A program made the position numbers and the translations under genes. From a virus: DNA of 43,968 nucleotides. Numbering within the stretch: the stretch's first letter is position 1; the number at the start of each line of letters is the position of its first letter. Below the pieces are notes generated by a model. It was not told where the DNA came from. It was given only the letters and a program-made list of their open reading frames with translations, and did not search any database. The stretch covers positions 1 through 43,968 of IMG/VR virus record IMGVR_UViG_3300020457_000021, one strand, 5' to 3'. Below are positions 22,765 to 39,630 of the stretch, in pieces.

Positions 22765-25700
22765 TTATGTTGATTCTCTTAGACCCAATAGTCTAGAGAC
22801 ATAGGCACTAGTTGATAGTCCAATTTGATAATTTGAGTCATTAAGATTACCTACACCATTTTGAGTATAAGCATTAAATGACTTAGAATTAGCATTTCTA
22901 TTTACATTTATAACACCCCAAGTATAAGTACCTGCGTTTTTATGCCCAGTTGCTCCAGGAATTACAGATTCTAAACCTGCAGTAGTTATTCCTACTTGAT
23001 GATCCTGAACATTACATGTAACACGAACAGTAGATGATCCTGCACCAGTTGGTTGATGCTCATGATGATATACTTGGTACACACTATTTAAGAACTGTGT
23101 TCCAATACCTACTGTAGTAGCAGTATTAACACCAACAGCAGTAACTCCAATGCTAGGTGAACCAAGGTTGGTATTATCAATTACAAAGTAGTCACCAGTT
23201 GCAAGACCTGATTTAGTCTTTGCTGCAACAATATTTGGATGTGGAATTAGATCATATATGATCTGATGTGTTGTGACACCAGCATTAGTAATAGTTGCTG
23301 TTTGAATTCCAATTACTAATCCATAATCACCATCATAAGTAACTTTTTCAATTTTTTCTTCAACACTTCCTTCTGGTTCAATCAATACTACTGGTGGATT
23401 TGCACTACTATATGCAGCACCAACATTAGTCAAAGTAATTGAAGTAACAATTCCAGCAGTTATGTTTGCAGTACCAGTAGCAGTTGTTCCTACTCCATAA
23501 CCTTGTTCTGGCATTGGTTGTATAGAAACTTGAGGTGCAGATGTGTATCCAAATCCACCATCTGTAATAGTAATAGTAGAAATGGTCCCACTTAACGAAA
23601 CACTAGCAGTAGCAAAAGCAGGTCTAGTTACATCTTGAGAAATTATTCTAATATCATTTAAATTTTGTGCCAAATCATCAGTATGTGAGAATGTTGGATA
23701 TGTATTCTTCACATATATCTTATTATCGGTTGAACTAACATCTTTAATAATATTTGTAGATGGAGTTAATTGGGGAGCCCAAGAAACTCTAGATTTTGAA
23801 ATGTATACACCATCTATAACCATATCTGATGTTTGCTTACACCATTTAATTGGTCTTTCAAAACCATCTGTTCTAATTCCAACTCCGCCATAAACCTGTG
23901 TTTGTACTGAATCAGAAGATAATAACTCATAAATTTTTCTTTCATCTTGTGCTGTAGTCCAAGATGGAATTTTACTTACATCATCAGTTCTCCATTCCTG
24001 TAAAGTTAGACCATCACCTTCTTTAACTGTTTGGTCAACATCAACACTTAAGTAATCTTCTGTAGAAGCAACATACAAATATATTCTAAGTTTGCTTCCA
24101 GGTTTTGGTGCTTCAATAAATTTTATCCTAGTACCACCATTAAACTCATAATCTTGATTTGGTTGTTGTAAAACATCATTTATGAAGATGAATAAATTAT
24201 TAGCAAGAACAATTCCAGAATCCTGCATTGCTCTAATACTATAGTATTCTTTATTAACAATAGTTCTTGTAATTAAGAAACTCTTTCTAAACCCATTGAA
24301 TAGACTACTAAAATCATCTAATTCTAATAACTGTCCAACAGTCCATCCAGAGAATTTATCTTGATGTCTATTCTTAACAGTTAAAGTAAATCTAGAAGTA
24401 CTAATTCCTGGTGTGTATGGTGGATCTATATGTAATACATCATTAACTGAATATCCAACTCCAGGATCATTCAAATTGTAAGATATAGCACTACCTGCTA
24501 CTCCTACAGTAAGATCGACAGTAGCTCCAGATCCATTTCCACCAATTAATGGTACATTCTTCCAAGGAGAAGGTGCATCAATGATAATTGTAGGCATATC
24601 AGTTGATGTATAACCAGTTCCTGCATTTGCTATTGTTAATCCACTAACCATTCCATTAGAAATTGTAGCAGTTATAGAAGCACCAATACCTGCTCCTGCT
24701 CCAACATTAACTGTTATAGTATCATCGGTTTTTGCAGTAATAGCAGTCTGTATACCAGAAACTGGATCAGTTGATCTTGGATAAGTTTTATTGCTAGTGT
24801 AATTGTCTCTTGAACATTGAAATTCTAATGTATCATTGGCAATTGCTACTGTATTACTTGTAGTTAGTCCATGATTAGGAATGGTTAATACCAAATTTCC
24901 AGTTGTTGAATTATATGTTGCGTATGTTGGTGTATGTGTTCCACTTCCATTATCTGTAACTGAATTAGTACCTGCACTTACAAATCTATGTTCATAATGA
25001 GACTCGGTTGTTGCAACACTTACACTAGGTGCCTCTAAATACCCTGTTCCGCTATTTCCAATGCTTACAGATGCAATCGTACCACCAACACCTATTACAC
25101 ACGTTGCAGTCGCTCTGAATGAGGACTGTATCCCAGATCCAGGAGTAACATCAAACTCATTTATTATTCCACCTTGTGGAAGGTCTTGAGTAGCACCTGC
25201 TATCTTTCCAGTTGGAGAATAAGTACCAGCAAATGTGATAGAATTTCCAGCACCTGCAATAGTATAATCAGACTTATTCAAACTTGATCCACCTTCACCA
25301 TGATGTGGATCTTGGAATATATTATTAACTAGAACGAATCCATAATTTGTAGTTATACCAGCATCAGCTGTTAATGTTAACATATCAACATTATTAGAAT
25401 ATAACATAAATTCATCTTCTTCACTATCAAAACTCTCAGATATATCATCAAAAATGAAGTTGTTATCATACTTTAATCTATAGAATGATCTACCATCAAA
25501 ACTTGACTTATTACTGAATATACTTGTAGATCCAATACCTGCACTATATCCATATGGAGCATCAATAAAGTGAATGCTACCATCTTGAATTCTATAATCA
25601 CCAGAAAGGACAGTTACACCAGCACCAGTGGTATGTGCAGCAGCTACAGTACCCATTGCACCCCTAGTCACACTTAATGCTTGTGTAGACCCCAAACTAA

Positions 25701-28700
25701 CTGTTGCATCACCAGGTGTAGTTCCTATTCCTACTAAATTAACTTTTACGATCTCATTTTCAATCTTAAGTAAGGAATTTCCTTTTATCTTAGCAGTATC
25801 ATCTAGGAATAATGTTTCCGTTCCTATACCAGCACTAGTTTGTAGTCCAACAGATAAATTCCTAACAAATGCTAATGGACTTTGTATAATATTATCAATA
25901 GAGATCATAACTCTATTAGTAGCTAATTCTGGAGGAACAGCAAATGTATGAGTATTTCCCACTCCAACTATGTTTGTAATAGTATGAGCAGTTCCAGCAT
26001 TTGCATTAACTTTGCTTGATGCTATTTTAAATGTATTTTTACTTTCTTTAATTACATAAACCTTACTTCCTAATGAAACTTGACCACCGCCACCATTATC
26101 AACCTTAATAGCAGTTGTATCAGCACTATAATCTAACTCTTCACCAGTATTAAATTCATGGTCATTGATTGTAATTACTCCAGTAGAAGTATCAATTCCA
26201 ACAGAAGGTTGAACTGTTTTATAGAATAATCTTTCAGTACTTACTCCTGTGTTTGGTTGACCTGGAGTGTCAATAGTATAAAGTGCAAATGTAGTTAATC
26301 CTACAACTTGGCCACCAGTAGTCGTCGTGAATCCAGTAAATTGATCGCTAATATCCTTCAATAAAAGAACTTTATTTGTTCTTGATTCGTTATAATCAGT
26401 AAGAACTTTTCCATTAAATGTAATAATCTTTGATAGGGTATTAGTTGTAGTGTCTGGATCTTCAAGTCCCATGTCATAATAATACCTACACCAAACTGAA
26501 GCATCACTCTCAAGTTCAATTTTTAAAGAAATATCACCTGCAAACGTACTCATACCTGTATTAGAAACTGCTGGAATAATTTCTAAGTCTGCAAATGGTT
26601 TATAACCAGATATGTGTCCTAAACTTGTAATAGGTTCTTTCCAAGTATCATAAGGAACCTCACCCTTAATTGCATAAGAGAACCTCTGATAATAATCATT
26701 ATCATGCAATCTTTGATCATTATGACTTAATTTTCCTTTATCTGTCTGCCAATTTGTTGCTTTAGATACTAAACTATCGACTTCTAAATCAAAATTAAAA
26801 TCATATACATTTTGAATTATAGATTTTGAACTTCTAAGAGAACTTTCAATTTTATCCTTTTCTTTAAATTTACCTACAACATTTTTCAATTTTAATGTTT
26901 GAGAATCTTTATTCCAACCATCTTTGGCAACAAATCCATATGTTAAACCATCAGAAGATGATATTTTCTCTCCTTCAAGGAATTGAACTTTTTTAACATT
27001 TGCTTCATATCCTGCTAAATCTACTGCCTTAATTACTCTACCAAACTCACTTGTATTGTCATAATTTCCTGCTGTACTTCCTATACCAGAAATAGAGTAC
27101 TTAACACTTGCATTACCACCAAGTGTATTGATTCCCGTAACTGTAAAGTACTGATAATCATAATCACTGGAATTATATCCATCACCATCATCAGTTATGT
27201 CTATATTTTCAACAAAAATTAGATCTCCTAAAGAAAATGGGAAATTTTCACTAGTAAATCCAGCAATAGGCTCTCTTATTCTTATTTCATTAGTTTGGAA
27301 TTGATCACAAGTTGCACCTATCGCTGCAACACCATTTGAGTTAATAGTAGGAATTATCTTTATATTTTCAGAAATACCAGTATCATTTTGAATAACATCA
27401 ACACTGGATACAGAATTTCCGACCAAATGAGTATCGGTTTTAATTACAGTATTACCAATAGCAACTGTTACTGGTGGAGAAGTATAATTATTTCCTCCAG
27501 TAGTAACCCCAATAGAATCTAAAGTATATACATCTCTCAACTTCAATACAACAAATGGATCAGCTTTAGGTGTTAATGTTTTATCATTAGTAAACTCAAG
27601 ACCTTGATCAGAAATTTGAACTCCATTTATTTGACCTATTTCATTAGATTCTTCAGAAAATACAGCGTCAAAACCAACAGTAGTTCCAATAGAAACTATT
27701 CTACTTAAAGTATCAGTATCTACTACATTATTAATTCTTACGGAGTGGACTCCACCTTTTTCTGTTTTAGAATTTGTAGTATAGAATGCACTACTAAATC
27801 CACTAGAAGAATATGAAGTAGTTTCAGCAGCTCCAACTAATGTAATAGCAAATGTAGTTGTTCCGATACCAGCAGAAACTTTATGATCTTTATTGAATAA
27901 TGACTCAACTACATTAATATTTGAATAATTTCTTACCTCAGTATTGGTAGCAGATTCATAAGTATTTACGTAATTTGAACCAACTCCTTCAACTTGATAA
28001 TAAATGTTATCTGGGAATGATTCATCAATATCTAAAATAATTTTTCCAGAACTTCCATCACCAAATGCACCTTCTCTTGTAACTGAAGATGAATCATATT
28101 TAGATATAAAGTTTTTATCATTATAGAAATTAATATCATAGTTCGTCAAACTAGAATCTGATACATCCAGAGTTACAATACTACCTCTATAGAAACTTAA
28201 AGGTGGATTTACACTAGCAATTGTATGAGTTCCTGAACCTTGAGTCGTAAACTTAATGCCTTCGTATGCAGGTTTATTTGCATTATATGCATTTTCCGCA
28301 AGTCTAATTACATCATCAGATATTCTAACAGCATAATAAATCCCATTATTTACCAATGGAGTTGCTGGATTTGCTGAACTATAAACAATAATATCACCAG
28401 TTGTTAATTTGTGATCTGGAATTGTAATTTCATGAATAGTTGTAGTAACAGCAGTTGAAACAAATTGTTTTTCATTAGATGTTAGTTTCTTAATATCATC
28501 GTTATACTTAAATGTTATTGAATCTGTTCTATTAGAAGTAACATTTAAAGAAATAATATCATTTAATTCTAATGAATGAATTGAATCTAATATTAATCTA
28601 CCTTCTCTTTTTATTGATTTGCCAGTTATATTTTCAGGAATAGACTCAAATCTATGATCACTACCATTAACTGTTGAGAAATAAACACGAGATGTTGTAA

Positions 28701-31700
28701 ATCCAAGTTCTTGAGATACTCCCGTTTTTTCTGTTGCTATTCCAATAAATTCATCATTCAATTTGACACAATATAATTTACTGAAATCTTTGAAATCCAT
28801 TTCAGTTCCACCATATTCTCTAGTTCCTTTTAAGGTACTACCAACAGCAACATATGATAATTCTTGACCAGTTACAAATGGATGATTTGGTGCATATATT
28901 GCTCTTGCTGGTACAGTCTTACTTTGAGTAAAACTACCAGCATATCCAACAATTACATCAACAGCAGTACTTCCTATTCCTACAGATCTTTGGCCATCAA
29001 AATTAAACCTTTTAACTTCTTCTATATTTTTATTCTGGGTTGTTTTATCTACTTGGAAAGTAAATTCTAATGGTTTTTTAATAACATCTACACCTACCGC
29101 ATGAGTGGTACCACTAGTACCATTATGTAATCTAGCAACTCTATATCTGTTATTGAATTGATCCTTATTAAGGATTAGCATTTGCTCACTCTGCATTTCA
29201 ATAACATCACCAACTCTAAATCTATCAGTATTAGTTGGTTCGCTAAGAGATATAAATGTAGATACTCCAGTTACAGAAGTTGCAGCAATAGCGACAGATA
29301 CTATGGTTGTGGTTGTTTTTACACCTACTGTCCTATTTCCCTCAATGTAACTATAAAAAGCAGAACTAACTCCAACAATTTCAGCAGAATCTCCATCAAT
29401 ATAATTATGAGGAAGAGTACTAAAAGCAGTTACAGTCTTACCTTTAATAGCAAATTTCAAATTATCTGATGTTATTGCACTTGTTGCTATAGATACTATA
29501 TTTTTACCAAAAATTTTATCAATTGTTCCACTTACAGCACCAGAATTTGTAAATGTTAATGTATCACCTACTTTATAGGAATTACCAGGATCATCAACAA
29601 ATACAGTTGTTACTCCAGAAGATCTTATAGAATCGATCTTTAAAAGTGGATTAGATGCTAATTGATTTGATACAAACTTATACTTAGTAGTAGGGTTATC
29701 GAATCCTAAGTGAGTTATACTTCTTTTATATTCACCAGTATTAATATATTCGTCAGATTGGTCAATTAATGTATCATAATTAAACTTATCAGATTCATTA
29801 TGATGTTTAAATGGCAAATATGGGAATTTTGGACTAGAACTAGTAGAATCGTTTATAGTTGAATAATAACAATAAATTCCATCAGGATAATCATCATTAA
29901 ATTCCCATCTACCATTAAATTCATCTAAATCTCCGCTTCCTTTACTAAAATAAAAGTCTTCTATAAAATAATCAGTAGGATAATTTGGTCTAATACCAGT
30001 ATCAGAAACTGGATTGGAAATATAACTAGACCTCATTGGTCTAATTTCATTAGCACTGAAATCTTTTCCGTATGGAGCATAAATTGGGTTTCCATCGTAA
30101 GCCCAACCAATAATTTTTGAATGCTCTCTTTGGTCTACTGGTTTTTCTTCACCATTACCCTTTAAGTTGTCACCAATATCTTCACGAATCTTTTTAGGTA
30201 CGAAGAAAGAAGCAAGTTTATTCCCTTTAGTTGATCTAAGTTGAACTGCATTATAAGTACTATCATCTATTACATGTTCATATCGCTTTACATTATTAAT
30301 TCTCCATTCATGAATATTACAGTTAAATAATGCTCCCAATCCAGCAGGAACAATTCTTATAGTAGTTTCACCTTGAATATAATTTTTTCCAGGAGCAATA
30401 ACAGTTACAGAATCTATTTTTCCATCAACAATATTTGCTTTTAACTTAGCTAGTTTACCAGCACCAACAACCTCAAGGACTGGTGGGGTTGTATATTCGG
30501 ATCCACCATCTATAACATTAACACTATCTACTTTACCACCAAATCCAATAGATACTCCAATAATTGCACCCTTTCCAGTAAATAAATCAATTTTTGGTTG
30601 TCTTATGTGGTTAACTATATTAGTAACACCATAACCAACACCACCTTTTCTAATAAAGACATTATCAACCTTACCTTTTATAATTGGAATTGCTTTAGCA
30701 GCAGAATATGAAGGAAGAACAGTACTTCCCACACCAACAGCAGTAACACCATCAATATTTACTTTAATTTCTGGATAATCGAATGTATGAGTACCAACTC
30801 CAATTGTAGACATATTTACATACGTCTTATTTCTATAATTTGTATTACTATCACTTAATTTGAATTTATCACTATCAATAACAGTAATTGTATAGTGTGT
30901 TGAAGTAGATAATCCAGTAATTACTGTACCACCATTAGAATATGATACAACATCACCACTAGCAAAGTTATGATTTCTAGCATATATGTAATCATCATGA
31001 GTATTGATTCCAACAAAAGTAGTTAAAATTCCAGACCTATTTTCTGGTGGATATTTCTGAGCATCTATCTCTACCTTATTATAACCAAAATTAGATCCTG
31101 ATGTCTTAACTACAATTTCACTTATTTTCTTTCTTTTTCTTTTAGCCGTGAATGTATGAGTTCCAGATCCATCATCTAAGAAATTAATCAAGAATTTTTT
31201 ATTTAATGCCCTTTCTCTTGTTATTGCAAGTGAAAATTCAGTATCATCAGTTTTTGCAACAAAATACGTTGTACCATCTATTAAAAATGTTGTAGCTCCA
31301 ACTCCTGCTGCATTATAATTTAATTGAGCATTAGTACTAGCAATACCAACAGCAGAACCTGTTGTAGTATATACAATCTCCTCTCCATCTAAAAATCTAT
31401 GTGTTTCACCAGTAGGAAGAGTAATTTTTCCAATTGTAGTTGCTGTACCAACACTAGCTTCTCCAACTGAAACTGAATGTGTAAATGCTTGCAATCTTGC
31501 TTGACATTCTGCACCTACACCATTACCTCCAGTTATTGATACTGCAGGTGGTGCATAATAGTCCCATCCACTTTCTGTAACTACAATTTCGGATACTTTT
31601 CCATCACTCAAATGAACATTACAATCTATAGCACTTCCTTCACTATCTCCAACTGAAACATTTGGTGGATTTATAACATCATAGTCACTTCCACCAGTTA

Positions 31701-34002
31701 AAACATTTATTTTGTCAATTTGACCATAATGAACAGAATCTTGAGAAATTGCAGAATGCAATTCAAGTCCATTTAATGTAACTCCAACTGCACCAATAAT
31801 ATCATCATGTTTATTTGCTATTGCTGGCTTAATTGGTATCTTTTTGAAATTATTCTGATTTTTTAAAGATCCGCCACGATATAAACTATGTGGTATAATT
31901 TTATGCTCATCAAGACCAGAACTGACATGAAGTTGATTCCAGTATGGGTGAGTACTCAAACCAGCAGCAGTTTTAAGATCCCATAATGTATCATTACTGA
32001 AAATACTTTGTCTACTTAATGATAATCTAATATTATCATCATCAATTCTTTGAACATAATAAATTCCAGTATCCAATCCAACTACACCACTATCATCAGT
32101 TGATGGTTGATAATATACCTTTTCTCCATTTAAAAATTCATGGTCAGCAATTGATATTCCTGAACCTACAACATTTTTAGATGTAAATGTCTTAGATCTG
32201 TCAGTAGTGTCAAAATCACTTGAAGGATATCCAGAAAAAGCAATATATGCATTACCTTTAGAGTCAATAAATGAGTTTTGAATATCTGCTAATACATTTC
32301 CTAATCCAAGTCTAGGAGAAACAAATCTTATATTATCTCTTATAGAGTAATTTTTTCCAGCATCTGCTACATTATTAACATTCAACTCATTCGTATATTT
32401 TACAATATTAGCAGTAACTTCACTTACTGGCATATTGTTTCCTAAAAATGCTCCAGTCTCTCTTTCATATACGTCTATAAAATGACCTTTCTTTATAGCT
32501 GGAATATCTAAAAGAGTTATACTACCACCAGAACCAGCACCAGTTTGAATACCAGATATTCCAGTTACCACATCTTTCAATAATACATCATATTCTATAG
32601 GTGAATTATATGTCCAAGTATTGAACTTTCTTTCCAAAACATCTGTTTTCTCACCAACATATCTTGCACTAATTGTATCACCAACATTAAGGAACTTTGT
32701 ACTTTCAAAACCAGTGGAAATGCCAGAAATACCACCACTTATTCTCATTTTACATACTTTAGATGTATCGTTATCTTCATAACCATACACAAAATTACTG
32801 CTAATTACTGGTGTATCTTGAGGAATACTAGTTGTTAAACCTACACATCCAAAGAATTGATTATATGATTTTGAACTATATGATACTTGTTTATATGTCC
32901 CAGATGTATTTGGGTACCAAAAATGTCCAGTAGCACCAAATCCAACAGTAGAATCAACGCTTACAGTGTCTATAGTATCATTTGTCCCAATAACTTTTGT
33001 CTTATTATTAATAGTAAATCTATTCTCAAAAAGAGGATCAATTCCTCTATCGATAGTTTCTCTTGATAGTGAAATTCTGAAATATGTCTTATTTTCTAAA
33101 AATACCTCTTCTACGTTTGAAATTGCACCACTTGCAGTAGAATTTTCTTTAGTTAAAACTGAAAATGTATCTAAATCTCCTTGATATAATGAAGAAAACT
33201 TCAAATTCATTGGATTTCCTTCTATGGCTTCAACCATAACTTGGTCACCCTTATTCCATTCAGCATCAGATGCAACAATAGTACTATTAAATGGTTTATT
33301 GATAGTTACTGGTTTACCAAATAAGACCTTGAATAGTATGTCTAATGAGGTATCAGTTCCCTTTGATGCATAAAAGTCTTTTGCTCTTGTTAATATATTT
33401 TCAATAGAAAGACCAGATGCAAATTGTCTCTTTTCTACTCCTGGTAAAAAATGATTTTTAAACTTATTATAGAACTGTCCCAAATAAACAAAACTTAAAT
33501 TTAAGACAGGAGATAGTGCATCATGTGGATTTGCTTCTGTTTCTGAAAAAACTAAATTTTCTGGATTTCCTGGTGTTTCAAGTTTATCGATTCCACTAAA
33601 TCCACGAGCACAACCAGTAAATGAAGTAGCAGTTTTACCAGTATAAGTAATAATCTCATTACCTATTTTAAGTAGGCCATATGCGTCTGGAAACCCCTTT
33701 GTATGATTTACATTGATTACATCATCAAATGCAAGAGCTCTTTGTGTGAGCACTACTATTTGGGGTGGTGTTGCTGCTCCAGTTGGGGTTATAGTTTGTG
33801 CTCTTACTGTCTCTATCTCTGATAACTTAGAAATACTCTTATATTCGTTAATATTTTCAGCTAAATCTCCAATTCCATATTCATGACCATCAAAATGATA
33901 ATATTGCTCCAAAAATTCCTGAAATAAAGGACTTTCCGATACAACGTAATCAGGTATTATGCTACTTAAGATGTTAGATACTTTTACTTTTTTATCTGCC
34001 AT
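22765..34002 (-). CDS. gp7: giant gp7-type baseplate wedge protein with degenerate YHYH domain
   Basis: A 3745-aa protein in the T4 gp7 position between gp6 and gp8 (T4 gp7 is 1032 aa). N-terminal residues 1-60 and the segment FLPGVEKRQFASGLSIENIL are typical of cyanophage wedge initiators. About residues 1290-1395 form a YHYH-type domain (GWAYDGNPIYAPYG ... YPDGIY ... FPYLPF), but the name-giving tetrad reads YCYY. About ten G-G-x-x-Y-x-x-P repeats are scattered from about 770 to 3540. Three copies of the L-x-I-x-x-E/R-G...H module occur near 88-150, 1570-1640 and 2715-2805. G-I/V-G-T-T motifs are frequent. One open frame spans 11.2 kb. Confidence 0.88.
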   Translation of the reverse strand: MADKKVKVSNILSSIIPDYVVSESPLFQEFLEQYYHFDGHEYGIGDLAENINEYKSISKLSEIETVRAQTITPTGAATPPQIVVLTQRALAFDDVINVNHTKGFPDAYGLLKIGNEIITYTGKTATSFTGCARGFSGIDKLETPGNPENLVFSETEANPHDALSPVLNLSFVYLGQFYNKFKNHFLPGVEKRQFASGLSIENILTRAKDFYASKGTDTSLDILFKVLFGKPVTINKPFNSTIVASDAEWNKGDQVMVEAIEGNPMNLKFSSLYQGDLDTFSVLTKENSTASGAISNVEEVFLENKTYFRISLSRETIDRGIDPLFENRFTINNKTKVIGTNDTIDTVSVDSTVGFGATGHFWYPNTSGTYKQVSYSSKSYNQFFGCVGLTTSIPQDTPVISSNFVYGYEDNDTSKVCKMRISGGISGISTGFESTKFLNVGDTISARYVGEKTDVLERKFNTWTYNSPIEYDVLLKDVVTGISGIQTGAGSGGSITLLDIPAIKKGHFIDVYERETGAFLGNNMPVSEVTANIVKYTNELNVNNVADAGKNYSIRDNIRFVSPRLGLGNVLADIQNSFIDSKGNAYIAFSGYPSSDFDTTDRSKTFTSKNVVGSGISIADHEFLNGEKVYYQPSTDDSGVVGLDTGIYYVQRIDDDNIRLSLSRQSIFSNDTLWDLKTAAGLSTHPYWNQLHVSSGLDEHKIIPHSLYRGGSLKNQNNFKKIPIKPAIANKHDDIIGAVGVTLNGLELHSAISQDSVHYGQIDKINVLTGGSDYDVINPPNVSVGDSEGSAIDCNVHLSDGKVSEIVVTESGWDYYAPPAVSITGGNGVGAECQARLQAFTHSVSVGEASVGTATTIGKITLPTGETHRFLDGEEIVYTTTGSAVGIASTNAQLNYNAAGVGATTFLIDGTTYFVAKTDDTEFSLAITRERALNKKFLINFLDDGSGTHTFTAKRKRKKISEIVVKTSGSNFGYNKVEIDAQKYPPENRSGILTTFVGINTHDDYIYARNHNFASGDVVSYSNGGTVITGLSTSTHYTITVIDSDKFKLSDSNTNYRNKTYVNMSTIGVGTHTFDYPEIKVNIDGVTAVGVGSTVLPSYSAAKAIPIIKGKVDNVFIRKGGVGYGVTNIVNHIRQPKIDLFTGKGAIIGVSIGFGGKVDSVNVIDGGSEYTTPPVLEVVGAGKLAKLKANIVDGKIDSVTVIAPGKNYIQGETTIRIVPAGLGALFNCNIHEWRINNVKRYEHVIDDSTYNAVQLRSTKGNKLASFFVPKKIREDIGDNLKGNGEEKPVDQREHSKIIGWAYDGNPIYAPYGKDFSANEIRPMRSSYISNPVSDTGIRPNYPTDYFIEDFYFSKGSGDLDEFNGRWEFNDDYPDGIYCYYSTINDSTSSSPKFPYLPFKHHNESDKFNYDTLIDQSDEYINTGEYKRSITHLGFDNPTTKYKFVSNQLASNPLLKIDSIRSSGVTTVFVDDPGNSYKVGDTLTFTNSGAVSGTIDKIFGKNIVSIATSAITSDNLKFAIKGKTVTAFSTLPHNYIDGDSAEIVGVSSAFYSYIEGNRTVGVKTTTTIVSVAIAATSVTGVSTFISLSEPTNTDRFRVGDVIEMQSEQMLILNKDQFNNRYRVARLHNGTSGTTHAVGVDVIKKPLEFTFQVDKTTQNKNIEEVKRFNFDGQRSVGIGSTAVDVIVGYAGSFTQSKTVPARAIYAPNHPFVTGQELSYVAVGSTLKGTREYGGTEMDFKDFSKLYCVKLNDEFIGIATEKTGVSQELGFTTSRVYFSTVNGSDHRFESIPENITGKSIKREGRLILDSIHSLELNDIISLNVTSNRTDSITFKYNDDIKKLTSNEKQFVSTAVTTTIHEITIPDHKLTTGDIIVYSSANPATPLVNNGIYYAVRISDDVIRLAENAYNANKPAYEGIKFTTQGSGTHTIASVNPPLSFYRGSIVTLDVSDSSLTNYDINFYNDKNFISKYDSSSVTREGAFGDGSSGKIILDIDESFPDNIYYQVEGVGSNYVNTYESATNTEVRNYSNINVVESLFNKDHKVSAGIGTTTFAITLVGAAETTSYSSSGFSSAFYTTNSKTEKGGVHSVRINNVVDTDTLSRIVSIGTTVGFDAVFSEESNEIGQINGVQISDQGLEFTNDKTLTPKADPFVVLKLRDVYTLDSIGVTTGGNNYTSPPVTVAIGNTVIKTDTHLVGNSVSSVDVIQNDTGISENIKIIPTINSNGVAAIGATCDQFQTNEIRIREPIAGFTSENFPFSLGDLIFVENIDITDDGDGYNSSDYDYQYFTVTGINTLGGNASVKYSISGIGSTAGNYDNTSEFGRVIKAVDLAGYEANVKKVQFLEGEKISSSDGLTYGFVAKDGWNKDSQTLKLKNVVGKFKEKDKIESSLRSSKSIIQNVYDFNFDLEVDSLVSKATNWQTDKGKLSHNDQRLHDNDYYQRFSYAIKGEVPYDTWKEPITSLGHISGYKPFADLEIIPAVSNTGMSTFAGDISLKIELESDASVWCRYYYDMGLEDPDTTTNTLSKIITFNGKVLTDYNESRTNKVLLLKDISDQFTGFTTTTGGQVVGLTTFALYTIDTPGQPNTGVSTERLFYKTVQPSVGIDTSTGVITINDHEFNTGEELDYSADTTAIKVDNGGGGQVSLGSKVYVIKESKNTFKIASSKVNANAGTAHTITNIVGVGNTHTFAVPPELATNRVMISIDNIIQSPLAFVRNLSVGLQTSAGIGTETLFLDDTAKIKGNSLLKIENEIVKVNLVGIGTTPGDATVSLGSTQALSVTRGAMGTVAAAHTTGAGVTVLSGDYRIQDGSIHFIDAPYGYSAGIGSTSIFSNKSSFDGRSFYRLKYDNNFIFDDISESFDSEEDEFMLYSNNVDMLTLTADAGITTNYGFVLVNNIFQDPHHGEGGSSLNKSDYTIAGAGNSITFAGTYSPTGKIAGATQDLPQGGIINEFDVTPGSGIQSSFRATATCVIGVGGTIASVSIGNSGTGYLEAPSVSVATTESHYEHRFVSAGTNSVTDNGSGTHTPTYATYNSTTGNLVLTIPNHGLTTSNTVAIANDTLEFQCSRDNYTSNKTYPRSTDPVSGIQTAITAKTDDTITVNVGAGAGIGASITATISNGMVSGLTIANAGTGYTSTDMPTIIIDAPSPWKNVPLIGGNGSGATVDLTVGVAGSAISYNLNDPGVGYSVNDVLHIDPPYTPGISTSRFTLTVKNRHQDKFSGWTVGQLLELDDFSSLFNGFRKSFLITRTIVNKEYYSIRAMQDSGIVLANNLFIFINDVLQQPNQDYEFNGGTRIKFIEAPKPGSKLRIYLYVASTEDYLSVDVDQTVKEGDGLTLQEWRTDDVSKIPSWTTAQDERKIYELLSSDSVQTQVYGGVGIRTDGFERPIKWCKQTSDMVIDGVYISKSRVSWAPQLTPSTNIIKDVSSTDNKIYVKNTYPTFSHTDDLAQNLNDIRIISQDVTRPAFATASVSLSGTISTITITDGGFGYTSAPQVSIQPMPEQGYGVGTTATGTANITAGIVTSITLTNVGAAYSSANPPVVLIEPEGSVEEKIEKVTYDGDYGLVIGIQTATITNAGVTTHQIIYDLIPHPNIVAAKTKSGLATGDYFVIDNTNLGSPSIGVTAVGVNTATTVGIGTQFLNSVYQVYHHEHQPTGAGSSTVRVTCNVQDHQVGITTAGLESVIPGATGHKNAGTYTWGVINVNRNANSKSFNAYTQNGVGNLNDSNYQIGLSTSAYVSRLLGLREST

Positions 34003-34004
34003 TT

Positions 34005-35894
34005 CTATCTAATATAGTTTTTGGTACTTACAAAGCTTGATGGTGGGATGTATTCATTTCCAGATCTATTAAGACCAGATGTGACAATATCTTCCAAAAG
34101 ATTCAATTTACTGTTTGCTGTAGTATCTAGCACAATATAAAGGTTCTGTTTTGCGATAATATCATTGGATTCTGGTATAACCTCAATTTCTACCTTATCA
34201 GTAAGTCCAGTAGATGAAATATTTGTTGGATACAAGATAATTTCACCTTTTGCATAATCAACTGTACCTGCATTTAGGTTAATATAGTTGGGTTTTTCGT
34301 CAACAATAGTAAAATATCGTATTGTACCAGTATCACCAGTCTCATCGGGTAAATCAGAAAGATATACACTACCTTCAACACCTTGAAGTTTAAATGAAGA
34401 CGATCTTATATTAAATCCTTCCATATCCTTATGGAATCGGTTACCATAACAAAGTTCATAGTTAGCAAGTTTGTCATAAGCAGGAATTAGGTTCCTTCTC
34501 ATCTTAAGAACAGTAATATTAGAAGTAACTGAAGTACTAACAGTGTCAATTATATTTAAAAGTTTACTATACTTCAATCTTCCTCCAAATTGGTTAATAT
34601 CACTTGATTTTGCGTAATTTGAGATAGCATTAGTAATGCTTGATGCTAATCCTTCCTTAGATTCTGCTGATCCAGGATCATAAGAGACTGTTGAATTGTA
34701 TTCAACGTACAAATACTTCAAATCAACAAATTCTTGCTTAATTCCAGCAACTGTATACTGTTTCAATCTTGATCTAATAGCCTCTTTAGAGACATCGGAC
34801 AAATATTCACCATTTTGAGGTTTAATTGTGATATAAACCTTACCATATTCAGGTGGAGTAACCTCTTCTCCTCCATATGCACTGACAGAATCGATATTTG
34901 AGAACAGATTTGGTATTAAACTGATATAATCATTCGCTGTCACTGCCCTCTGCTGCGACGCATAGACCCTTGGAGCAAGATATTTGATGGAATCTACAGA
35001 TTCTATGGATGCACCGTTCTCAGACGGTTGTGTGGTCGATATAAGAGACACTCCTTGAGTAACAGATTGGTCAATTCCACCAATTGTATAAGTTACCTTA
35101 CCATTAAATGAGAAATTTGCAGCTCCATTACCTAATTCACCTTGTGTTACAATATAAGTAACTTTAATTGTACTGCCATTTTCTGGTTTTTTACCTAAAG
35201 TACCATCTCCAAATAGAAGTTGATACCTTTCATCGCTTATTTCTTGTACTAGGAACAATCTTGATAAAGAATTGACTTGATAGATGTTTTCGTACTTATT
35301 ATAAACTTCTTCTGTTCCTGATGGATTTGTTATTGTGACTCTAATTGTAGAGGTATCAATGTTTGCATTTGGTAGAATATACTTTGCATCTACTTGAGAA
35401 TTATCAACTGTGAATGTTTTTGTAAGTAATGTTCCCTCATGTACAGTAATATCACTAAAATTTACTATATCATTGTCATTTGCTCTTGCAGTAATGTCAT
35501 CTGGAATCGAAAATAAGTAATCTCCATTAGAAAGATTACCAGATGCTACTAATCCTTTATGTAAAGTTAGTATTTTTGCCTTAGAAGAACTTACATTTAC
35601 ACTAAAATTGATCTTTGCAGTAGAAGATTTCTTTGAACGTGGGACATAACCAATATTTCTTGCCAATGAAACTACGTTTTCTCTTAAAGTAGCACTATCA
35701 ATGAATGCCTCATTGACTGCCATATTGGTGTTATAAGAGGTAATATAGGAATTATACGCTAAAGTATCGATTAAAACAGAAAAATTAGACCCATCGAAGT
35801 CAAAATCACTAAAATTTGAGTTAGCTCTCAGATAATCCTTAATCTGAGCCTTCAAATCGTTAAAATCTAGGTTAGTGAATTGATTAAATGCCAT
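34005..35894 (-). CDS. gp6: gp6 baseplate wedge protein
   Basis: A 629-aa protein of the T4 gp6/baseplate-J family (T4 660 aa), which forms the ring joining the wedges. The N terminus (FTNLDFNDLKAQIKDYLRAN and the segment NTNMAVNEAFIDSATLRENV) is a clear gp6 signature. A baseplate-J-like middle includes APRVYASQQRAVTANDY near 308-324. It shares its first base with the stop region of gp25 (both at 35894) and precedes gp7 by 2 bases, giving the T4 order 25-6-7-8 (in T4 gene 25 lies elsewhere, but it is adjacent in many T4-like phages). Confidence 0.95.
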   Translation of the reverse strand: MAFNQFTNLDFNDLKAQIKDYLRANSNFSDFDFDGSNFSVLIDTLAYNSYITSYNTNMAVNEAFIDSATLRENVVSLARNIGYVPRSKKSSTAKINFSVNVSSSKAKILTLHKGLVASGNLSNGDYLFSIPDDITARANDNDIVNFSDITVHEGTLLTKTFTVDNSQVDAKYILPNANIDTSTIRVTITNPSGTEEVYNKYENIYQVNSLSRLFLVQEISDERYQLLFGDGTLGKKPENGSTIKVTYIVTQGELGNGAANFSFNGKVTYTIGGIDQSVTQGVSLISTTQPSENGASIESVDSIKYLAPRVYASQQRAVTANDYISLIPNLFSNIDSVSAYGGEEVTPPEYGKVYITIKPQNGEYLSDVSKEAIRSRLKQYTVAGIKQEFVDLKYLYVEYNSTVSYDPGSAESKEGLASSITNAISNYAKSSDINQFGGRLKYSKLLNIIDTVSTSVTSNITVLKMRRNLIPAYDKLANYELCYGNRFHKDMEGFNIRSSSFKLQGVEGSVYLSDLPDETGDTGTIRYFTIVDEKPNYINLNAGTVDYAKGEIILYPTNISSTGLTDKVEIEVIPESNDIIAKQNLYIVLDTTANSKLNLLEDIVTSGLNRSGNEYIPPSSFVSTKNYIR

Positions 35895-36304
35895 TATATT
35901 CTACTAGGTTGTAAGAGAAATTCTATATTTTGAGTCGGAACAGGTAATCCTATGATACTGTATTTAATAGTAATGTACAGACCATTATAATCTAGAGTAT
36001 CATTTACAATAATATCCAATACTTTGATTCTAGGTTCGAAGTTTTCCAATAATGTTCTAATTTCTTCAGTCAATGAAGAAGAAATATCACTACCTACAAG
36101 TTCAAATAATGAAGATTCAACAGAAAGACCCAACAAATCATTAAAAAATCGCTCATTAATTCGAGTTTTTACTAAATTCTGAACTGATTTTTTAATTGCA
36201 TCCTCGTTTCTAAGTACAGTTACGTCATTTGTAACTGGATGTCTCGTAAATGAGAAACTAATGTCCTTAAAACCACGAGAAATTGGTTCTGTATATGCTG
36301 GCAT
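35894..36304 (-). CDS. gp25: gp25 baseplate wedge, lysozyme-like fold
   Basis: A 136-aa gpW/gp25-family protein (T4 132 aa), the wedge core subunit next to gp6 and the base of the sheath. The family pattern is plain: SRGFKDISFSFTRHPVTND at the N terminus, then AIKKSVQNLVKT and a basic segment RINERFFNDLLG. It starts 26 bases after the 51-aa ORF and shares one base with gp6. It is probably transcribed from the CTAAATA promoter at 36509. Confidence 0.95.
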   Translation of the reverse strand: MPAYTEPISRGFKDISFSFTRHPVTNDVTVLRNEDAIKKSVQNLVKTRINERFFNDLLGLSVESSLFELVGSDISSSLTEEIRTLLENFEPRIKVLDIIVNDTLDYNGLYITIKYSIIGLPVPTQNIEFLLQPSRI

Positions 36305-38318: not shown

Positions 38319-38507
38319 AAAGATCTTTAGTGGTTCGTTGTTATCTAAAACACCAAACATGTCGTAGAATAGTTTATAACCAGATTCCTCATATTCTTTG
38401 AGGATTATGTTATAAATGTCTGGAGAATAGGTGTTCATAAGTAATAAGAATTTAGAGAGGATTAGAGGATTTAAAGTGTTACTTTGATTAGAGGATATTG
38501 CCCCCAC
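38307..38507 (-). CDS. 66-aa hypothetical protein (GTG start) or 43 aa from an internal ATG
   Basis: A small gene of unknown function: Leu/Ile-rich middle, then an acidic C terminus (EPLKIFEGD). The longest form starts with GTG at 38507 and overlaps the 113-aa gene by 20 bases, which would allow translational coupling. The first ATG is at 38438 and would give 43 aa (MNTYSPDIYNII...). I see no strong ribosome-binding site for either. Its last codons form the terminator stem. Confidence 0.65.
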   Translation of the reverse strand: MGAISSNQSNTLNPLILSKFLLLMNTYSPDIYNIILKEYEESGYKLFYDMFGVLDNNEPLKIFEGD

Positions 38508-38829
38508 AAAGTATCATTCCATCCCAGAAATCTACTGTCTGATTGTTATTACTTTTGAAGTACCAATCCCAATTCTTTTGAAACACTTTACAACCGTAAT
38601 CTATCTCACATAAAATAGCATTTAGTCGTGATTTTGTGGTGTTTGTTTGATAACCACAGGATGACAATTTCAACGCCTGATTGTTATGATCTAGAGTTGC
38701 AATTTGGTGACCATGTAGATAAACAGAAGAGCAATTTGTGTTTGAATTGTATACAACTGATGTGTTAGATTTAGACCAGTTTGCTCTATTTGAAAGAGCG
38801 AAATTCATTTGCTTTTCTATTAGTCTCAT
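38488..38829 (-). CDS. 113-aa conserved phage protein (H-G-x-x-I-A...T-N-T-T-K-S-R-L-N family)
   Basis: A 113-aa protein. The order of motifs is NTSVVYNSN near residue 23, VYLHGHQIA near 36-44, SCGYQTNTTKSRLNAIL near 57-73, and VFQKNWDWYF near 82-91. I recognise this as a small uncharacterised family common in marine podoviruses and myoviruses; the conserved basic patch suggests nucleic-acid or protein binding. It is preceded by a 175-base gap and followed, with overlap, by the 66-aa gene. Function unknown. Confidence 0.82.
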   Translation of the reverse strand: MRLIEKQMNFALSNRANWSKSNTSVVYNSNTNCSSVYLHGHQIATLDHNNQALKLSSCGYQTNTTKSRLNAILCEIDYGCKVFQKNWDWYFKSNNNQTVDFWDGMILCGGNIL

Positions 38830-39004: not shown

Positions 39005-39175
39005 TTATGAGAGATTGTGTATAAAACGCCTGAGGATTCTCTCACCTTTCTTTACATCTTTCTCGAATTTTGTGTCCATAACTAATGCTAACTCTATAAA
39101 GAGTTGTGCATAACATTCTGGAATTCTGATGTGTTTTGTGTTACCTGAGTTTGGAAACTTCTTCTTGAATGGCAT
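39005..39175 (-). CDS. 56-aa basic early protein
   Basis: The open frame extends upstream to 39301, but a near-consensus promoter lies inside that extension, so transcription begins at about 39203 and the first usable ATG is 39175 (MPFKKKFPNSGNTKHIRI). The protein is 56 aa, basic at both ends, with a hydrophobic helix in the middle (YAQLFIELALVM). A textbook AAGGAGG (39196-39202) lies 20 bases before the ATG, unusually far. Function unknown. It is the promoter-proximal gene of a unit reading toward 38300. Confidence 0.7.
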   Translation of the reverse strand: MPFKKKFPNSGNTKHIRIPECYAQLFIELALVMDTKFEKDVKKGERILRRFIHNLS

Positions 39176-39209
39176 TACTTTTCTGTGCCTATTTGCCTCC
39201 TTATGTGTT

Positions 39210-39238
39210 ATTATACCATGTGCCGTGATTATTAGCAA
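39210..39238 (-). promoter_or_regulatory. sigma70-type promoter of the 56/113/66-aa unit
   Basis: Minus strand -35 TTGCTA (39233-39238), a 17-base spacer, and -10 TATAAT (39210-39215), extending to TATAATAACA. Same pattern as the promoters at 37548 and 38014. It lies back-to-back with the plus-strand promoter at 39243, four C's separating the two -35 boxes. Confidence 0.85.
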
Positions 39239-39242
39239 CCCC

Positions 39243-39271
39243 TTGACATTTTTATGCTTTGATGATATAAT
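39243..39271 (+). promoter_or_regulatory. perfect-consensus sigma70 promoter on the plus strand
   Basis: Plus strand TTGACA (39243-39248), exactly 17 bases, TATAAT (39266-39271): a complete match to the consensus of the primary bacterial sigma factor. It is the only convincing plus-strand promoter I found. No plus-strand ORF with a good start follows; the first ATG (39440) opens a 7-codon frame. The transcript would be non-coding, running through the TTTTCCACA cluster and antisense to the 42-aa and 60-aa genes. Confidence 0.85.
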
Positions 39272-39334
39272 GCCCGCCAAGATCACTAAAGAAAGTAACA
39301 TTTAACATAAAGATTCTGAGACATTCTTAACACT

Positions 39335-39500
39335 AATTCCACACGTTAATTATAACAATTCCACACGTTTTCCACACCCTAAGTATCATTAAATCAGCAA
39401 TTGTGGAAAACTAAGTATAAAACAGAGGTATATTTATAATGGCATTTAAAACATCATTTTAACCTAATATCTGTGGAAAACTAACACTTTCTGTGGAAAA
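39335..39500. repeat. cluster of six TTCCACA sites, four exact TTTTCCACA
   Basis: Exact TTTTCCACA occurs at 39368-39376 (plus) and at 39402-39410, 39472-39480 and 39492-39500 (minus, all reading TGTGGAAAACT on the plus strand). AATTCCACACGTT occurs from 39335 and from 39357. The plus-oriented sites start 22 and 11 bases apart, and the last two minus-oriented ones 20 apart, roughly whole helical turns. TTTTCCACA is the DnaA-box form reported for cyanobacteria, one base from the E. coli TTATCCACA. I found no other exact copy in the window. Confidence 0.75.
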
Positions 39501-39501
39501 C

Positions 39502-39630
39502 TCACCTATAATACTTATTACATAGTCTCGTAATCTCTTTTCTCCAATATTCCTTTTCTTTTGCATTTATCCAAGGTGAGTGATAGTTAATATACGCATT
39601 TTGTATCTCTTTCTTATTACTTTCATCCAT
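39502..39630 (-). CDS. 42-aa hypothetical protein
   Basis: A small ORF read directly: 42 aa, beginning MDESNKKEIQNAYINYHSPW and ending CNKYYR, with many Lys, Tyr and Asn residues. Its stop lies two bases before the last TTTTCCACA site. There is no strong ribosome-binding site. It follows the 60-aa gene by 33 bases and would be the last gene of the unit from about 41.36 kb. Function unknown; moderately likely to be real from packing. Confidence 0.55.
   Translation of the reverse strand: MDESNKKEIQNAYINYHSPWINAKEKEYWRKEITRLCNKYYR

Follow-up and report, generated by a model that had tools for sequence, protein, structure and literature searches.

Clustered, helically phased DnaA boxes of cyanobacterial type in T4-like cyanophages mark a candidate replication origin at the oriE position

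Introduction

T4-like phages are treated as independent of host DnaA for their replication, and we know of no T4 origin that uses this protein. What, then, could a tight cluster of host-type DnaA boxes be doing in a T4-like cyanophage genome? An earlier note, made from the sequence of one virus record, drew attention to such a cluster and suggested either a new type of origin or a decoy that titrates DnaA and stops host replication. The searched literature contained no paper describing DnaA boxes in cyanophages and no mapped cyanomyovirus origin, and for phage Syn9 a single theta origin has been predicted (PMC2984593).

Results

The window, that is the whole stretch of 43,968 b that was analysed, is a 44-kb virus contig with minus-strand T4-type structural genes (portal, tail tube, sheath, terminase, gp25, gp6 and others). 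Together with the cyanophage marker genes, they bear out the earlier assignment to the T4-like phages, more precisely to relatives of T4-like cyanophages. One of the markers, the phrog_554 gene, occurs in 375 records, nearly all of them cyanophages, and the contig can be classed as a Kyanoviridae-like T4-type cyanophage. The genes that serve as landmarks below are the following.

34005..35894, minus strand: baseplate gene gp6, which together with gp25 fixes the position relative to T4 oriE
35894..36304, minus strand: baseplate gene gp25
38488..38829, minus strand: phrog_554 gene, the cyanophage marker used to collect relatives

Between gp6 and other baseplate genes, the window has a single ORF of 3745 aa (22765-34002), which matches a giant structural protein found at the same place in other cyanophages.

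A stretch of 166 b (39335-39500) contains four exact copies of TTTTCCACA, of which one is on the plus and three are on the minus strand, together with two AATTCCACA variants, at the coordinates first reported. The exact boxes span 133 b and have the 10-mer GTTTTCCACA in common.

39335..39343, plus strand: variant box AATTCCACA
39357..39365, plus strand: variant box AATTCCACA
39368..39376, plus strand: DnaA-type box 1, exact match to TTTTCCACA, unchanged in the close relatives L006, L008 and L010
39402..39410, minus strand: DnaA-type box 2, exact TTTTCCACA, inverted with respect to box 1 with a gap of 25 b (25-27 b class)
39472..39480, minus strand: DnaA-type box 3, exact match to TTTTCCACA
39492..39500, minus strand: DnaA-type box 4, exact TTTTCCACA, direct repeat of box 3 at 20 b (20-22 b class)

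A scan of the complete record found no exact copy outside the cluster, as had been claimed, and the chance expectation for the whole window, put earlier at less than about one copy, was computed as 0.94, against four observed. Taken alone, this total is modestly unusual (1 of 100 shuffles reached four), and copies with one mismatch are not enriched (16 found, 20.6 expected). In 400 order-2 Markov simulations of the window, two copies fell within 140 b once, and three or four copies never did. It is the clustering of the boxes, and not their count, that is far from chance.

Relatives were collected through the neighbouring phrog_554 gene, independently of the boxes, which gave 56 loci of the same gene neighbourhood. 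Across these, TTTTCCACA is the 9-mer most often found in clusters. At least two copies within 250 b are present at 25 of the 56 loci, compared with a mean of 0.06 and a maximum of 3 for composition-matched 9-mers. Among four close relatives, one of which is the window itself, all 36 box positions are invariant, against 125 of 161 positions in the remainder of the tract; L012, where a contig end distorts the comparison, is excluded from this count. Inverted TTTTCCACA pairs are also found at this locus in cultured Kyanoviridae, namely P-SSM7 (45973/45996), S-SM1 (48835/48866), Syn9 (52565/52589) and nine more. In most of these phages, the two boxes of an inverted pair are separated by 23-24 b (31 b in S-SM1), and extra copies are frequent. 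The Syn9 stretch matched 134 phage records, a number that says nothing about how many cyanophages lack boxes, since the query includes them. The earlier note had proposed that the cluster be sought in related cyanomyoviruses, and boxes are indeed present at the same locus in many genomes.

The conservation is not universal. The locus is without a box pair in P-SSM2, P-TIM40 and S-SSM7, and box presence varies among phages assigned to identical or closely related hosts. A profile of the promoter and leader core described below matched P-RSM1 and S-RSM4 and, less strongly, P-SSM4 and P-RSM6, in each case without TTTTCCACA; in P-TIM40, the profile search gave no convincing core. The core looks to be the older part, and the DnaA boxes a module open to loss or replacement. 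Since some relatives keep the core without boxes, DnaA is probably not indispensable to every version of the element. Where relatives have boxes, S-RSM4 (NC_013085, approximately 140255-140345) has an inverted repeat, TTCTCAATA/TATTGAGAA, with an extra copy of TTGATTCTCA, which is unrelated to DnaA boxes.

The spacing of the boxes is not arbitrary. In an open scan, the gaps of inverted pairs bunch at 3-5, 14-16 and 25-27 b, and the start distances of direct copies at 11-12, 20-22 and 31-33 b. These steps of about one helical turn are characteristic of proteins that sit on the same face of the DNA, and the phasing is as would be expected for protein-bound sites. There are several gap classes, with differing spacer sequences. 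The contigs are related to each other, and nominal and Rayleigh p-values for the phasing are too small. Because a reversed-motif control also matched IMG/VR abundantly, inflated by one repeated gap-10 family, raw pair counts mean little, and the argument for phasing rests on the gap histogram and on the complete lack of inverted pairs with a 19-b gap, set against at least 120 IMG/VR contigs with a 14-b gap. Of 80 contigs carrying the 14-b pair, 73 matched one or more cyanophage proteins from this region.

A larger element (approximately 39210-39502) contains the boxes. The earlier observation is confirmed in that the feature is real and conserved, and it is larger than the coordinates then given. 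The cluster sits within a block of small genes, in apparently non-coding DNA that extends from a gene-strand promoter (39238-39210) to the end of a small ORF at 39502. All promoters in the element are sequence matches.

39210..39238, minus strand (gene strand): predicted divergent sigma-70 promoter for the next small gene, 10/12 consensus
39243..39271, plus strand: predicted sigma-70 promoter, 12/12 consensus, 17-nt spacer, extended -10
39279..39304, plus strand: conserved leader AAGATCACTAAAGAAAGTAACATTTA, at the expected transcript start of the antisense promoter
39411..39470, no strand: AT-rich tract between boxes 2 and 3, candidate unwinding region
39431..39438, minus strand (gene strand): predicted T4-type late promoter TATAAATA, inside the cluster between boxes 2 and 3
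39502..39630, minus strand: small ORF of 43 codons (42 aa) that borders the element

The predicted sigma-70 promoter at 39243-39271 points into the boxes and is antisense to the genes. Its TTGACA element and leader are found again in relatives. The leader region (39277-39307) is invariant at 30 of 31 positions in the four close relatives and is also kept in MH319759, and an altered form (GCTAAGAC..ACATTTA) is present in 12 reference phages. For the putative late promoter, there are four other minus-strand TATAAATA copies in the window, each directly upstream of an ORF, and NATAAATA is the reported cyanophage late promoter (PMC2984593). Beyond the cluster, gene-strand promoters are found again in relatives. 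The tract between boxes 2 and 3 is 78% A+T, which places it at the 98th percentile of 60-b windows in a genome of 66% A+T.

Around all clusters, a loose promoter search found more promoters pointing away, mostly the gene-strand promoters of the next gene, than pointing in, so that promoter counts alone give no direction. The TTGACA-leader core points into the boxes in 67 cases and away in 2, a comparison with some circularity, as the core had been defined from loci of this kind. In many relatives, a dyad surrounds the -10 element of the antisense promoter (L005, 586-620; also L031, L035, L042 and L053). It takes the form GCGAG..CTCGC or GGGGAG..CTCCCC, is altered on both sides in some relatives, and looks like an operator. 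The ORF at 39005-39301 is listed with a start (39301) upstream of the likely promoter. Its true start is probably near 39173, which would make the non-coding stretch longer than the ORF list implies.

The position of the element invites comparison with phage T4. In the T4 annotation, oriE lies upstream of gene 5.4 (PAAR) and gene 6, and its primer RNA is complementary to the transcript of gene 5. This origin requires an early promoter and contains 12-nt iterons, which also occur in regions syntenic to it in close relatives (PMC3016281). In cyanophages, the element is found upstream of the PAAR/gp25/gp6 block, and its early promoter points away from gene 6, antisense to late genes. When the T4 annotation is set against P-SSM7, S-SM1 and Syn9, the position in the gene order (upstream of PAAR and gene 6) agrees, and the cluster in the window is likewise upstream of gp25 and gp6. 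The element resembles oriE in position and in repeated sites nearby and, judged by sequence, would also do so in having an early promoter and a predicted early RNA antisense to late genes, and in late transcription in the opposite direction. In contrast to the 12-nt direct iterons of T4, the cyanophage repeats are host-type DnaA boxes of 9-10 nt in both orientations, and the element is intergenic, whereas T4 oriE lies inside gene 5. The cyanophage element has no array of evenly spaced 12-nt direct iterons, and T4 oriE has no exact DnaA box.

There is also some likeness to T4 oriF/ori(uvsY) and oriG/ori(34), in which a promoter is directed into an AT-rich tract roughly 100 b long (PMC3016281). 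However, these origins use MotA middle promoters, which are absent from cyanophages (PMC2984593), and they do without DnaA boxes. With the cyanobacterial oriC beside dnaN, the element shares an AT-rich intergenic setting in which TTTTCCACA boxes occur in either orientation. It differs in the fixed helical spacing of its pairs, in the attached early and late promoters, and in belonging to a phage genome with a phage-encoded replisome.

On the host side, TTTTCCACA is the cyanobacterial DnaA box (PMC4674748), and the published box and the dnaN-side oriC of some Prochlorococcus agree with the cyanobacterial type that had been assigned to the phage sites. Across 12 picocyanobacterial genomes, marine or related, the motif occurs about as often as chance predicts over the genome as a whole. 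Next to dnaN, on the side accepted as that of oriC, there are seven exact copies in 4 of the 12 genomes. Most of the others have one-mismatch copies there, and several host genomes have only such forms and no exact box. DnaA domain IV is evident in 10 of the 12. A phage-encoded DnaA was considered as the reader and rejected, as ten phage records searched contained neither such a protein nor a DnaA domain IV. Host DnaA would be the natural reader of the phage sites.

Discussion

In our opinion, an origin at the oriE position that recruits host DnaA is the best explanation of the data, with a likelihood just short of even. It gains from the synteny with T4 oriE and from the antisense early promoter, and we regard the element as a good candidate for a phage replication origin that borrows a host protein. 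Box-less loci (P-SSM2, P-TIM40, S-SSM7) and the different repeat of S-RSM4 speak against it, as do a nucleotide skew that does not single out the locus and the lack of an exact DnaA box at T4 oriE and, in several host genomes, beside dnaN. P-RSM1 and S-RSM4, and more weakly P-SSM4 and P-RSM6, which match the core without boxes, argue against a strict or general requirement for DnaA. Of the earlier interpretation, the host-type boxes, the T4-like record and the conserved locus have stood; GC skew shows no switch specific to the locus, and some relatives keep the promoter core without boxes.

We infer DnaA binding, strand opening, primer use, origin activity and an early-to-late switch. Early in infection, host RNA polymerase would use the sigma-70 promoter at 39243-39271 and transcribe antisense to the late genes into the AT-rich tract flanked by DnaA boxes. 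In P-SSM7 and Syn9, the antisense start would be expected at GCTAAGA/AAGATCAC. The transcript, or strands opened with the help of bound host DnaA, might then serve to initiate synthesis of phage DNA. At a later stage, transcription from the T4-type late promoter on the opposite strand would run through this tract and put an end to the early use. A broader version of this proposal is that a widespread group of T4-like marine phages starts replication at the oriE position, from an origin that combines a T4 transcript-primed origin with a bacterial oriC. Host DnaA would be recruited to phased boxes beside the antisense primer promoter, and lineages would have gained, lost or exchanged the DnaA module. 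This version is put forward tentatively, as possible rather than probable.

The main rival is a DnaA-based transcription switch without any origin. In other bacteria, DnaA is known both to regulate transcription and to act as a roadblock. If bound at the phased boxes, it could block or terminate the antisense early transcript or tune the divergent early promoters and the late promoter, and the boxes are well placed for this role: they lie downstream of one early promoter and upstream of the divergent gene-strand promoter, and they surround the late promoter. However, a switch of this kind would leave the oriE synteny and the antisense primer-like transcript unexplained, and box-less relatives with the same promoters indicate that these can work without boxes. 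We consider it unlikely, if worth keeping in mind. Alternatively, another host or phage protein with the same preference might bind the sites, the likeness to DnaA boxes being incidental. Phasing points to protein binding, not to a particular protein. The variation in box presence among phages of the same or related hosts, together with the unrelated inverted repeat at the same place in S-RSM4, would suggest that the reader may be a lineage-variable phage protein. Yet the 9-mer is identical to the cyanobacterial DnaA box, hosts carry it beside dnaN, and no candidate phage protein is known. We rate a reader other than DnaA as quite unlikely.

The DnaA decoy of the earlier note is improbable. 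Several host-type boxes on a multiplying genome, in phages in which no DnaA of their own was found, would suit it, and datA-type titration loci are likewise clusters of DnaA sites away from oriC. The phage element differs from these in its attached promoters, oriE synteny and few copies: many phages have just one or two pairs, few for a sponge, and titration needs neither fixed helical spacing nor a fixed locus nor attached promoters. Pure titration fits the fixed geometry and the attached promoters less well. Finally, the inverted boxes might act as a hairpin in the antisense or sense transcript, either as an attenuator or as a stability element. The pairs fold well (-11.1 kcal/mol, z -3.3, in the window; -15.6, z -7.9, in S-RIM8). 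However, direct copies are also common and phased, boxes 3 and 4 of the window make no hairpin together, and it is the sequence rather than the pairing that is kept, with TTTTCCACA facing TGTGGATAA in S-SSM4. A search of the element found no Rfam match at gathering score, no terminator and no tRNA. A role of the RNA structure is the least credible of these alternatives and highly improbable.

If host DnaA is indeed recruited, replication of these phages would be tied to a host protein that controls the cell cycle, and this may be relevant to how infection follows host growth in the ocean. As the candidate sequence is short, fixed and present in many cultured phages, the question is directly testable, for example in P-SSM7, Syn9 and S-SM1.

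Nucleotide skew does not help to locate an origin. Across seven to eight whole cyanophage genomes, it is a uniform coding-strand skew. Once detrended, its extremes lie near the borders of the late-gene block in phages with and without boxes and are not diagnostic. The GC-skew switch that the earlier note suggested looking for has no counterpart specific to the locus. The detrended T-A skew has a minimum at the start of gp25/gp6 in P-SSM4 (55230), P-TIM40 (62996), P-SSM7 (52070) and S-SM1 (53518), which marks the change in composition at the start of the late block.

A further arrangement of the same box was noticed in the hosts. In five picocyanobacterial genomes, an inverted TTTTCCACA pair, exactly 44 b apart, is found in a shared intergenic position that is away from dnaN and flanked by the same small genes. 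It is perhaps a regulatory or titration site for host DnaA.

L380, 1555-1607: host 44-b pair
L381, 1583-1635: host 44-b pair
L382, 1473-1525: host 44-b pair
L383, 1528-1580: host 44-b pair
L384, 1476-1528: host 44-b pair
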